Shown here in pieces: positions 4,244-19,400 of a stretch of DNA of 20,132 bases. Both the position numbers and the translations under genes were made by a program. The DNA is taken from the NCBI GenBank assembly GCA_001871075.1, contig MNUP01000077.1:1-20132 (forward strand), written 5' to 3'. The number at the start of each line of letters is the position of its first letter. The first letter of the stretch is position 1. The DNA is from Candidatus Desantisbacteria bacterium CG1_02_49_89. Lineage in GTDB: Bacteria > Desantisbacteria > UBA1551. Under the pieces are notes generated by a model. It saw only the letters and a list, made by a program, of their open reading frames with translations. It did not search any database and was not told where the DNA came from.

Positions 4244-5074
4244 ATGGCATATAAAATATTGGAAAAAGAAGAACTGGCGCCGGGGATAAAACAATACGAT
4301 ATTCACGCTCCCCGGGTCGCGGAAAAATTCAAGCCCGGGCAGTTCCTGGTCATACGCCTGCATGAAAAAGGGGAAAGGATACCGCTTACCATAGCCATGG
4401 CAGACGCGCGCGCGGGCAGTGTCAGGATCGTGTTCCAGGAAATGGGCAAGACCACTTTTGAACTGGGGGCTATGAACAAAGGGGACAGTATAATGGATGT
4501 TCTCGGTCCTCTCGGAGTTCCCACGGAAATAAAAAAATACGGCCTTGTCGCAGGTGTGGCAGGAGGGGTCGGCGCCGCGCCGCTTCTTCCCATATTGAAA
4601 GCGCTTAAGGAAACAGGCAACAGGGTCATTACAATACTCGGGTCAAGGACAAAGGACCTGCTTATTTTCCGCAGGGAACTTGAGAAGGTGAGTAGCGAAC
4701 TCATAATAACCACGGACGACGGGACCGCGGGTGAAAAGGGATTCGTTACTTTTCCCCTGAAAAGGATCATTGAAGGCAAGAACAAGCCGGACGCTGTATG
4801 GGCGATAGGCCCTTTGATAATGATGAAGAATATCTGTAACGTGACAAGGAACGACGGGGTCAGAACGTTTGTAAGCCTGAACCCGATCATGCTGGACGGA
4901 ACAGGGATGTGCGGCTGCTGCAGGGTCACTGTCGGCGGGCACGTTAAGTTTTCCTGCGTTGACGGGCCGGAGTTTGACGGCCTTATGGTCGATTTTGACG
5001 AGATCATCGTCCGCAACAGGCGTTTCCTTGAACAGGAGCGTATTTCATACGAAAAGTATAAAAATAGTTTATAG
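4244..5074 (+). CDS. nfnA: Ferredoxin:NADP oxidoreductase subunit NfnA / sulfide dehydrogenase SudB type
   Basis: The FAD and [2Fe-2S] subunit of an NfnAB-type enzyme, which couples NADH, NADPH and ferredoxin by electron bifurcation. The same fold serves as the SudB subunit of sulfide dehydrogenase. The 276-residue length fits. An FAD-binding beta barrel is seen at residues about 1-95, with the flavin motif RIPLTIA. The nucleotide-binding GVAGGVGAAPLLPI follows near 105. The C-terminal cluster region DGTGMCGCCRV carries C223, C225 and C226, with C238 in FSCVDGPEFDG. SD GGTGG precedes the ATG. The gene lies directly upstream of the partner nfnB, as is usual. The last two codons and the TAG stop lie in or next to the 9-bp word repeat at 5066. 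Confidence 0.88.
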   Translation: MAYKILEKEELAPGIKQYDIHAPRVAEKFKPGQFLVIRLHEKGERIPLTIAMADARAGSVRIVFQEMGKTTFELGAMNKGDSIMDVLGPLGVPTEIKKYGLVAGVAGGVGAAPLLPILKALKETGNRVITILGSRTKDLLIFRRELEKVSSELIITTDDGTAGEKGFVTFPLKRIIEGKNKPDAVWAIGPLIMMKNICNVTRNDGVRTFVSLNPIMLDGTGMCGCCRVTVGGHVKFSCVDGPEFDGLMVDFDEIIVRNRRFLEQERISYEKYKNSL

Positions 5075-5184
5075 AGTTTACATAGTTTATGTAGTTTACA
5101 AAGTTAAGGATAGGGAAAATTATAAATGTATAGTTCATTACATATACTCTGTAAACTCTGCAAACTTTGTAAACTATGTAAACT
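5066..5184. repeat. Word-arm palindrome between nfnA and nfnB (9-bp words)
   Basis: The left arm is four 9-bp words, AGTTTATAG, AGTTTACAT, AGTTTATGT and AGTTTACAA (5066-5101). The right arm (about 5146-5184) is the complementary series, of the type TGTAAACTN, also with 9-bp period. About 45 bp separates the arms. The first word contains the nfnA stop TAG, and the right arm ends 5 bp before the nfnB ribosome binding site. Confidence 0.9.
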
Positions 5185-5198
5185 AATCTGGAGTTAAA

Positions 5199-5708
5199 AT
5201 GGAAAGCCGGCAGGAAATGCCCAGGCAGGAACCTGGTAAAAGAATAAAAAACTTCAAGGAAGTTGCTTCCGGATACACCGAGGAACAGGCTCTTAAAGAG
5301 GCATCCAGGTGTATTCAATGCAAGAAACCGACCTGTAAAGCGGGTTGCCCTGTTGAGATCGAGATACCTGAGTTCATAAAAGCTATAGCCGAAAAGGATT
5401 TTGCCAAAGCAATTGAGATCATCAAGCAGAAGAACAGCCTTCCCGCGGTATGCGGCAGGGTCTGCCCGCAGGAGAGCCAGTGCGAGAAGGTATGCGCGCT
5501 TTCGAAAAAATACGGGTCTGTGGCGATAGGCCGCCTGGAGCGTTTTGTTGCTGATCTGCAGATCAGCAACAGTATCAACGTGTCCCGCCCAACAAACGTT
5601 GGCGGGCAGGCGCCGTGTCAAAGTGTCAAAGTAGATAAAACGAAGGACGATGCACGATGCACGATGTTACGAAGGTTGCTATCGTGGGCTCTGGGCCCGC
5701 GGGCCTGA
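5199..5708 (+). CDS. nfnB: NfnB/GltD-type subunit, N-terminal iron-sulfur part (frame broken)
   Basis: First part of the NADPH-binding subunit of NfnAB, also called the GltD-like small subunit. It carries two four-cysteine sets for [4Fe-4S] clusters: C38, C41, C46, C50 and C85, C89, C95, C99. The homologous part ends at about residue 124, GRLERFVADLQ. The remaining 45 residues are encoded by repeat DNA and by the wrong frame of the downstream flavin domain, ending in a stop at 5706. The FAD and NADPH domains continue in another frame from 5657. GGAG at 5190-5193 supports the ATG. Either the gene is frameshifted, or the two parts are made as separate chains. One extra copy of the 7-bp repeat at 5647-5666 would fuse them into a 482-residue protein. 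Confidence 0.8.
   Translation: MESRQEMPRQEPGKRIKNFKEVASGYTEEQALKEASRCIQCKKPTCKAGCPVEIEIPEFIKAIAEKDFAKAIEIIKQKNSLPAVCGRVCPQESQCEKVCALSKKYGSVAIGRLERFVADLQISNSINVSRPTNVGGQAPCQSVKVDKTKDDARCTMLRRLLSWALGPRA
5546..5666. repeat. Repeat insertion inside nfnB
   Basis: Four repeat structures are packed here. A perfect 26-bp palindrome centred on CTGCAG spans 5546-5571. An imperfect hairpin, CCCGCCCAAC / GTTGGCGGG, spans about 5584-5609. Two copies of the 8-bp word GTGTCAAA lie at 5615-5630. The 7-bp word ACGATGC repeats 2.9 times at 5647-5666. The DNA replaces the linker between the iron-sulfur and flavin domains. Confidence 0.8.
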
Positions 5709-6640
5709 CATGCGCGGGGGACCTCGCGAGAATGGGTTACAGGGTTACTGTATTTGAATCCCTGCATTCCACAGGGGGCGTGCTCAGGTACGGCATACCC
5801 GAATTCCGCCTTCCGAAAGCAATACTGGATTTTGAAGTGGAAAGTATTAAATCCCTGGGTGTTGAAGTGAAGGTAAACGCGTTGATAGGCGGGAGCTATA
5901 CTCTTGAAGACCTGTTCAAAGAAGGTTATAAGGCTGTTTTTATAGGGACAGGAGCGGGCCTTCCTTATTTTATGGGAGTAAAAGGCGAGAACCTGAACGG
6001 CGTGTATTCAGCCAACGAATTCCTGACAAGGGTTAACCTTCTGAAGGCGTATGAATTCCCGGAATACGACACGCCGGTCAAAATAGGGAAAAAGATCGCG
6101 GTGATAGGCGCGGGGAACGTGAGCATGGACTGCGCGCGCGTTTCCCTGCGGCTCGGTGCAGAGGAGTCATGGATCGTTTACAGGCGCTCGGACGCTGAAA
6201 TGCCCGCGAGGGCGGAGGAGATAGAGAACGCGAAGGAAGAAGGGGTCAAATTCAGCCTGCTCACGCTTCCTGTTGAGGTTTTGAGCGACGGAAAGAGCGG
6301 AGTGAGAGCTTTGAGATGCATAAAAATGAAACTCGGTGAACCTGACCAAAGCGGCAGGAAAAGGCCTGTTCCTATAGAAGGCTCCGAGTTCGACATGGAT
6401 ATTGACACCGTGATAGTTGCAATAGGCCAGGGCCCGAACCCGCTCCTGCCGAGGAAAACGCCGGATCTGAAAGTGACAAGCCATGGGAATATAGTTGCCG
6501 ACCCCCAAACCGGAAAAACATCGATAGAAGGGGTTTATGCAGGCGGGGACATTGCCACAGGCGCGGCAACGGTCATAGAAGCAATGGGCGCGGGAAAACG
6601 CGCCGCCAGAGCGATTGATCAATACATAAAGAAATTATGA
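5657..6640 (+). CDS. nfnB: NfnB/GltD-type subunit, FAD and NADPH domains
   Basis: Second part of the NfnB subunit, 327 residues. The FAD-binding motif VAIVGSGPAGL lies near residues 7-17. The NADPH site is KKIAVIGAGNVSMDCA with YRRSDAEMPAR, near 150-190. The closing FAD motif GVYAGGDIATGAATV lies near 295. The frame differs from that of the upstream iron-sulfur part, and the two overlap by 52 nt. The ATG has AAGGA at 5643-5647, 9 nt upstream, so separate translation is possible. Both halves keep all key motifs, which argues against long-standing decay. The stop TGA lies across the first two 7-bp words of the repeat at 6633, so the final lysine-leucine codons overlap the repeat. Confidence 0.85.
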   Translation: MHDVTKVAIVGSGPAGLTCAGDLARMGYRVTVFESLHSTGGVLRYGIPEFRLPKAILDFEVESIKSLGVEVKVNALIGGSYTLEDLFKEGYKAVFIGTGAGLPYFMGVKGENLNGVYSANEFLTRVNLLKAYEFPEYDTPVKIGKKIAVIGAGNVSMDCARVSLRLGAEESWIVYRRSDAEMPARAEEIENAKEEGVKFSLLTLPVEVLSDGKSGVRALRCIKMKLGEPDQSGRKRPVPIEGSEFDMDIDTVIVAIGQGPNPLLPRKTPDLKVTSHGNIVADPQTGKTSIEGVYAGGDIATGAATVIEAMGAGKRAARAIDQYIKKL

Positions 6641-6737
6641 ATTATGAATGATGAATTATGAATCAAAGGCATAAGGATTTTATTTGAAATAAATTCCTTG
6701 CAGTTGACTCATAACTCATAATTCATAACTCATAATT
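6633..6737. repeat. Word-arm palindrome between nfnB and purH (7-bp words)
   Basis: The left arm is AATTATG, AATTATG, AATGATG, AATTATG (6633-6660). The right arm is CATAACT, CATAATT, CATAACT, CATAATT (6710-6737). The spacer carries AAGGATTT and AAATTCCTT as an inner inverted repeat. The nfnB stop TGA lies across the first two words, and the purH ribosome binding site AGGAGG starts 8 bp after the right arm. Confidence 0.92.
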
Positions 6738-6754
6738 GATTTTCAGGAGGAATA

Positions 6755-14603: not shown

Positions 14604-14702
14604 AATTATGAATTATGAGTTATGAATTATGAGTCAAGGAATTTAGTTTAAAATAAAACTCCTTGTTGTTGATTCATAACTCAGCATTCATAATTCATAA
14701 TT
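14604..14702. repeat. Word-arm palindrome between glyA and mnmE (7-bp words)
   Basis: The left arm is AATTATG, AATTATG, AGTTATG, AATTATG (14604-14631). The right arm is CATAACT, CAGCATT, CATAATT, CATAATT (14675-14702). The inner inverted repeat is CAAGGAATTT / AAACTCCTTG. The left arm begins 1 bp after the glyA stop, and the right arm ends 4 bp before the mnmE ATG. Confidence 0.92.
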
Positions 14703-18359: not shown

Positions 18360-18456
18360 TTATGAATTATGAATGCTGAGTTATGAATCAACTGCAAGGA
18401 GTTTAAATTTTAAATAAATTCCTTGACTTATAATTCATAACTCATAATTCAGCATT
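18358..18456. repeat. Word-arm palindrome between the UroD-like gene and pfkB (7-bp words)
   Basis: The left arm is AGTTATG, AATTATG, AATGCTG, AGTTATG (18358-18385). The right arm is TATAATT, CATAACT, CATAATT, CAGCATT (18429-18456). The spacer carries CAAGGAGTTT and AAATTCCTTG as an inner inverted repeat. The first word overlaps the TAG stop (18357-18359). The right arm ends 5 bp before GGGAG, the pfkB ribosome binding site. Confidence 0.92.
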
Positions 18457-18472
18457 CGAGCGGGAGCGAGTC

Positions 18473-18778
18473 ATGGATGTTGTTTGCTGCGGAATAATAG
18501 TTGCCGATGTGGTAGCCAGGCCTGTAAGAAAATTCCCCCAGAGGGGCAAGCTCGAGCTTTCAGACGAGATGGGGCTTTTTGTAGGCGGGTGCGCGACCAA
18601 CACGGCCATAGACCTGGCAAAACTCGGGATTTCAACAGGCGTTATGGGCAAGGTAGGAAAAGACGGGTTTGGAGATTTTGTGATAAGCGAAATGCGCAGG
18701 CACGGCCTTAATATAAGGGGAGTAAAAAGGGATCCCGGGCTTGAATACTTCAGGGACAATGGTATTCGTCCTTCCTGA
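18473..18778 (+). CDS. PfkB-family sugar kinase, N-terminal part (frameshifted)
   Basis: First part of a ribokinase-like (PfkB) kinase. The start MDVVCCGIIVADVVARPVRK and the substrate-binding VGGCATNTAIDLAKLG are family hallmarks. Homologous sequence runs to about RDPGL (position 18742), after which the frame reads YFRDNGIRPS and stops. The continuation is in the +1 frame from 18741. Removing one base near 18743 restores a continuous protein of about 308 residues reading DPGLNTSGTMVFVLPDG, a normal PfkB length. GGGAG at 18462-18466 lies 6 nt before the ATG. It is either a recent pseudogene or a sequencing/assembly error. Confidence 0.78.
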   Translation: MDVVCCGIIVADVVARPVRKFPQRGKLELSDEMGLFVGGCATNTAIDLAKLGISTGVMGKVGKDGFGDFVISEMRRHGLNIRGVKRDPGLEYFRDNGIRPS

Positions 18779-19400
18779 CGGTGAAAGGTCTTTCATACAC
18801 TATTTCGGGGCAAACTCGACTTTCGGAGAAAAGGATGTGGACTACAATTTCATCAAAGGCGCAAAGATATTTAACGTAGCCGGATTTTTCCTCCTGCCTG
18901 CGATGGAAGGGAAACCGATAGCAAACGTGTTCCGTAAGGTAAAGCAGATGGGGATAACCACTACTTTTGACACTGCCTGGGATTCGAGGGGCAGGTGGCT
19001 GAAGGCGATAAAGCACGCTTTTCCATATGTTGACGTGTTCCTTCCGAGCCTTGCAGAGGCCAAGATGATATCGGGAGAAAGTGAGCCGGACAGGATATGC
19101 CGGTTCTTCCTGGACAGAGGCGTAAAAACAGTAGGGTTAAAGATGGGACCCAAAGGCTCTTATTTAAAGACAAAAGACATTAAAATGTATGTTCCCCCTT
19201 ATAAGGTAAAGTCTATTGACGGGACCGGAGCTGGAGATGCTTTTGTCTCGGGGTTCCTGGCAGGCATGGTCAGGAACTGGCCTTTTGAAAAATGCATAAA
19301 ACTGGCGAATGCTGTCGGCGCTCTTGCAACAACTAAAGTCGGCGCCACCTCAGGAGTAAGTTCCATGAGGGACGCTCTTGAAATTATGAAACAGCGATGA
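18741..19400 (+). CDS. PfkB-family sugar kinase, C-terminal part (frameshifted)
   Basis: Second part of the same kinase. TSGTMVFVLPDGERSFIHYFGAN continues the sugar-binding half. The family signature DGTGAGDAFVSGFLAGM carries the anion hole and the catalytic aspartate, about residue 255 of the restored protein. The phosphate acceptor is probably a sugar, nucleoside or cyclitol; PfkB proteins cannot be assigned a substrate by eye. The nominal TTG start at 18741 has no ribosome binding site, so independent translation is unlikely. All motifs are intact, consistent with a very recent lesion or an error. It ends a possible Gfo/Idh, UroD, PfkB cassette. Confidence 0.8.
   Translation: MNTSGTMVFVLPDGERSFIHYFGANSTFGEKDVDYNFIKGAKIFNVAGFFLLPAMEGKPIANVFRKVKQMGITTTFDTAWDSRGRWLKAIKHAFPYVDVFLPSLAEAKMISGESEPDRICRFFLDRGVKTVGLKMGPKGSYLKTKDIKMYVPPYKVKSIDGTGAGDAFVSGFLAGMVRNWPFEKCIKLANAVGALATTKVGATSGVSSMRDALEIMKQR

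Follow-up and report, generated by a model that had tools for sequence, protein, structure and literature searches.

Several kinds of short repeat offer points of comparison for the locus described here. The Rickettsia palindromic elements (RPE) are dispersed short repeats that lie in frame within unrelated housekeeping genes and add translated peptide to their products (PMC10969869). Heptameric simple sequence repeats (STRR) are found genome-wide in cyanobacteria, Xanthomonas (GGGAATC) and the Beggiatoaceae (TAACTGA), mostly with few units and often adjacent to genes (PMC4679880, PMC4692102); the majority lie between genes, and they are scarcer than expected in coding regions (PMC4692102, PMC4679880). 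The tandem repeats in the open reading frames (ORFs) of Borgs encode disordered stretches of protein without disrupting the ORF, and their unit lengths are divisible by three (PMC9879509). Heptamer arrays at known phase-variable loci comprise 13-38 units (PMC2651432). We found no paper in the open-licence literature that directly matches in-frame heptamers in the phyla considered below.

We have analyzed a window of 20,132 nucleotides that constitutes the entire contig C54 of a 2.48 Mb genome in 150 contigs, related to Candidatus Desantisbacteria. The nearest genome compared, that of Candidatus Desantisbacteria CG1_02_38_46, belongs to the same order only, with 77% identity across the flavin half of the gene under study. 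That gene is nfnB, which by its sequence is the large subunit of an NfnAB-type flavin-based electron-bifurcating transhydrogenase. It adjoins nfnA (4244-5074, + strand; NCBIfam NF004862, 398.8 bits against a cut-off of 220), its upstream partner, coding for a sulfide/dihydroorotate dehydrogenase-like FAD/NAD-binding subunit. As the original prediction stated, nfnB is divided between two ORFs on the + strand, which differ in frame and overlap by 52 nt. The 5′ ORF (5199-5708) carries the Fer4_20 iron-sulfur domain (Pfam PF14691, E = 4e-45, residues 15-124) with its invariant cysteines all kept, and then reads through the repeats to a TGA at 5706-5708. The 3′ ORF (5657-6640), whose possible start is an ATG within the repeat, carries the FAD/NADPH-binding half (Pyr_redox_2, PF07992, E = 2e-35; Thermotoga maritima 4ylf chain B, E = 2e-126).

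The two ORFs match one and the same chain of T. maritima NfnAB, 4ylf_B. The locus thus resembles the NfnB or GltD-like subunits of T. maritima (4ylf) and Pyrococcus furiosus (5jca) in its domains, cysteines, nucleotide-binding motifs and upstream nfnA, but these solved homologues are single chains, whereas in the assembled sequence the two domains lie in different frames and the linker between them is frame-broken. Neither half is interrupted by a further stop, and the two together retain 89 of the 90 residues that are invariant in 45 relatives, bearing out the claim that the catalytic motifs are intact on both sides. A search of the genome returned a single match to nfnB and no second copy.

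The interruption lies in the linker between the two domains. From the GxLER motif to the flavin domain most relatives have 26-29 residues, and there are about 47 codons here, so that the frame-broken linker is some 20 codons longer; repeats do indeed stand in place of the usual sequence. We conclude that this linker is a disordered stretch in which dispersed short repeats have lodged. Where domain meets linker there is a perfect palindrome of 26 nt (5546-5571) that changes the usual ADW to ADL. It has no loop; codons that belong to nfnB are joined directly to their reverse complement. No other occurrence was found in the genome, and we have rejected it as a dispersed element; it is probably the result of a local fold-back event, possibly a fold-back template switch. 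There follows a GC-rich palindromic repeat (5583-5612, + strand), of which AACGTTGGCGGGCAGGCG (5595-5612) belongs to a genome-dispersed family with 15 matches at two mismatches or fewer, against none for the control. Beyond this GTGTCAAA is tandemly repeated in 2.2 copies (5615-5632, + strand); its 17-nt pattern occurs once in the genome, and this 8-bp tandem too was rejected as a dispersed family. The stack ends, as predicted and now confirmed by tandem repeat search (TRF), in 2.9 copies of ACGATGC (5647-5666, + strand). Between the two tandems lie a TAA (5636-5638, + strand), the last upstream stop in the frame of the 3′ ORF, and an AAGGA (5643-5647, + strand), a possible Shine-Dalgarno sequence 9 nt before the ATG at 5657, where it was said to be.

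The ACGATGC array is a member of a genome-wide heptamer family. There are 34 matches to ACGATGCACGATG in the genome and none to the reversed control, far above chance. In 20 regions whose surroundings were inspected the arrays are mostly intergenic or at gene ends and comprise 1.9-3.7 units, most of those in the genome having 1.9. A census of tandem arrays in a 736-kb sample, which covers 30% of the genome, reveals an excess of the 7-nt period over other unit lengths: there are 120 arrays at lag 7, compared with 0, 4, 51, 26, 15 and 3 at lags 5, 6, 8, 9, 10 and 11 respectively. In the nearest relative, 622 kb scanned in the identical way contained seven period-7 arrays. Other repeats in the window deserve mention. 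Four intergenic regions (5064-5184, 6633-6740, 14604-14702 and 18360-18457) contain tandem arrays of 9-bp or 7-bp units that face each other as inverted repeats, with arms of 25-34 nt separated by 31-54 nt; these look like fold-back elements built of short tandem units. Close to the contig end (19990-20045), the tail of the last ORF (IWAVIARSVNDEAIST) resembles a translated dispersed repeat.

The 120 period-7 arrays divide into 65 that are intergenic, 22 at gene ends and 33 in ORF interiors, in frame, although a few of the last, near the N termini of secreted-looking ORFs, could be misassigned start sites. Carriers include the genes for valine-tRNA ligase (valS), topoisomerase I (topA), XerC/D (xerC), threonine synthase (thrC) and a radical SAM protein, together with dxr, ispG, mnmG and thiL. 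The insertions in Dxr and XerC/D are seen by alignment with the nearest relative. ThiL (L115:1535-2680, - strand, G000:C22) has five in-frame repeat inserts, one of which is the ACGATGC family read from the opposite strand (TVHRASCIVHR); in the ThiL of the nearest relative these five loops are also occupied by inserts, of different sequence. The valine-tRNA ligase gene of the genome under study (L133:6078-8963, + strand) contains three separate in-frame heptamer arrays. On our reading such repeats are retained within genes only where they lie in loops, are free of stops and preserve the frame.

This distribution can be set against the systems introduced above. As with RPE, there are many copies in the genome, and several lie in frame within unrelated housekeeping genes. 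An RPE is one palindromic unit, about 150 bp long, and belongs to a defined family, whereas here we find mostly tandem heptamers of 20-36 nt, in many sequences, stacked with palindromes; the likeness is in pattern, array size being different, and we claim no relationship of sequence. Like the heptameric STRR these are tandem heptamers present genome-wide, mostly with few units, but more than a quarter of the sampled arrays lie in ORF interiors, in frame. The coding of disordered stretches is shared with the Borg repeats. However, a unit of seven, unlike one divisible by three, constrains the copy number, and one error in it is enough to interrupt a gene, as nfnB illustrates.

The same arithmetic bears on how the frame might be restored. 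The original prediction noted that one additional 7-bp unit would join the halves of nfnB into a protein of 482 residues. The calculation is correct, but it carries no weight as evidence for a switch, because a change of +7, of -14, or of -8 (one unit of GTGTCAAA) would each restore the frame. The two frames are offset by one position; one kind of offset is repaired by adding one unit or removing two, and the other by removing one or adding two. Since a 7-bp unit is 1 modulo 3, any array of this kind that is out of frame can be corrected by the gain or loss of one or two units. It also follows that the ATG of each unit falls in a different frame (those at 5650, 5657 and 5664 occupy one frame each), and that a perfect ACGATGC array encodes the same cyclic heptapeptide, TMHDARC, in all of them.

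We also examined the linker in related proteins. Among 80 NfnB relatives, 78 have an ORF of more than 400 amino acids that spans both domains; of the other two loci, one contains a run of N and in the other the match starts near the contig edge. The comparison with relatives that had been proposed as a check therefore disclosed no relative with the same split, all the intact full-length genes being fused. Heptamer arrays are present in the same linker in 11 of the 76 fused relatives that could be scored, with 14-21 of 21 lag-7 matches, whereas no window elsewhere in those genes exceeds 13 of 21. These 11 come from metagenome-assembled genomes labelled Elusimicrobia, Omnitrophota or unclassified 'bacterium'; all are fused, with the arrays in frame. 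The units vary, and include CAGAGTT, GACCATA, GTCCACA, ACATTAC and AGGCGAC, among others. CAGAGTT arrays have 29 matches in the genome of one such relative, L036, and 0-2 in four others, and arrays of the GWCCAYA type are dispersed in their own genome. Because the units tested are dispersed and partly genome-specific families, the insertions appear to be independent. A palindromic insert is also found in the NfnB linker of the nearest relative. In a model of the L036 NfnB, with a mean pLDDT of 86, the sole segment below 50 is residues 129-141, within the repeat-coded linker. Repeats have thus arrived in the NfnB linker time and again, and are tolerated there if in frame.

Against this background the nfnB of our contig is exceptional. 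Considering perfect heptamer arrays of 20 nt that are flanked on either side by coding-like sequence, the flanks share a frame in 11 cases and differ in one, which is nfnB. It is likewise the one frame-broken gene among 101 orthologues shared with the nearest relative in the sample. Eleven arrays between neighboring ORFs were considered as hidden splits and rejected; their gaps of 37-101 nt are typical of spacers. The same contig does contain a second frameshifted gene, a PfkB-family kinase (18473-18778 and 18741-19400) whose halves match positions 3-87 and 90-299 of PF00294. Its break, within 18473-19400, is of single-base type near 18740 (CCCGGGCTTG) and lies outside any tandem repeat, and the Pfam halves are contiguous. 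In a census of overlapping ORFs, five candidate pairs were scanned with Pfam, and PfkB alone comprised two halves of one family; three of the others are pairs of different genes and one was uninformative.

What, then, has happened to nfnB? The explanation that we consider likely is accidental. Several short repeats have collected in the linker, at least two of them from families scattered through the genome (the GC-rich palindrome and the ACGATGC heptamer), together with the 8-bp tandem. The total length added is not a multiple of three, so that the gene is interrupted in this contig. The break itself would be either an indel that the sampled strain acquired recently in its repeat-bearing linker, or a consensus error or mixed population; recent loss of frame and consensus error are both likely, and a regulated switch forms no part of the explanation. 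It rests upon the dispersal of the repeats, the recurrent use of the linker as a site, the arrays that lie in frame in other genes and the lack of any further frame-broken array in the sample. The second frameshift of the contig, in PfkB, and the otherwise intact state of the two halves also speak for it. Loss of the fused protein would last as long as the break, and that loss would be complete because the genome has no second copy of nfnB. This absence of another copy tells against an accident, as do two further observations, namely the stop-free halves that keep nearly all the invariant residues, as would those of a functional split gene, and the usable Shine-Dalgarno match ahead of the ATG at 5657.

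A pure consensus or assembly error, with the true nfnB in frame and fused through a repeat-derived linker, is a tentative alternative of clearly lower probability that overlaps with this accidental origin. The fused state of the intact relatives and the in-frame state of all the other in-gene arrays found are what it predicts, and the presence of two frame breaks in one contig of 20 kb, the second outside tandem repeats, with almost none elsewhere raises the chance of a local error. Yet short reads easily span a 20-bp array, and with no other break in the 101 sampled orthologues the assembly is not generally error-prone. A functional split, in which the repeat supplied the ATG at 5657 with its AAGGA and NfnB functions as separate iron-sulfur and flavin subunits, on two polypeptides, is possible but seems to us unlikely. 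The predicted anti-Shine-Dalgarno pairing at this ATG is -5.4 kcal/mol, near the values for nfnA (-4.9) and the 5′ ORF (-5.9), the gene median being -6.1. The new start would lie five residues before the conserved KVAIVGSGPAG, just ahead of the first conserved strand, and all but one of the 90 invariant residues are retained. Nevertheless the match is about average for the genome, with sites equally strong at 26% of internal ATGs, and the 5′ ORF continues for 52 nt beyond the new start with a meaningless tail. No relative lends support to such a putative split. Moreover, at conserved sites the 5′ ORF carries four private changes, including L24S and P107S, compared with one in the sister genome, whereas in the 3′ ORF the counts are 10 and 10; this hints at relaxed constraint on the 5′ half, with too few changes to decide.

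The other means of rejoining the halves are much less probable. The suggestion that slippage of the array toggles NfnB between fused and split states, by gain or loss of a unit, has in its favor that a tandem array sits at the break and that a 7-bp unit shifts the frame, but we regard it as very improbable. The array of 2.9 units falls far short of the lengths at known phase-variable loci, and ACGATGC arrays in this genome are for the most part shorter still; heptamer arrays at least as long lie in frame in essential genes of the same genome (valS, topA, dxr and ispG), and copy number is therefore unlikely to flicker. Furthermore, NfnB works in the cytoplasm as a metabolic enzyme, and is not the product of a surface or restriction gene. 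A programmed -1 ribosomal frameshift could in principle join two overlapping ORFs of which the 3′ lies in the -1 frame, and we have rejected this as barely credible. Downstream of 5636, where the 3′ frame has its last stop, no in-phase X-XXY-YYZ occurs before KVAIVGSG; a shift at the lone in-phase one, GGGCCCG at 5693, would abolish the nucleotide-binding motif, and no relative uses such a mechanism.

The split of nfnB is itself probably incidental to the wider phenomenon. By extrapolation from 33 arrays in 30% of the genome, arrays with a unit of seven would lie in frame in roughly a hundred genes, essential ones included, and such arrays are found in the NfnB linker of at least 11 other lineages. 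A bolder view would treat stop-free tandem heptamers as coding-compatible spreading elements that have independently rewritten the same linkers and loops (NfnB and ThiL) in several uncultured phyla, the ATGs of ACGATGC having split nfnB into two translated subunits; taken as a whole this is doubtful. For gene calling and domain annotation in these phyla the arrays are a warning to expect repeat-coded peptide and occasional splits. They also provide a natural experiment in how repeats enter coding sequence, revealing protein sites that tolerate random peptide, with selection for frame as the filter.
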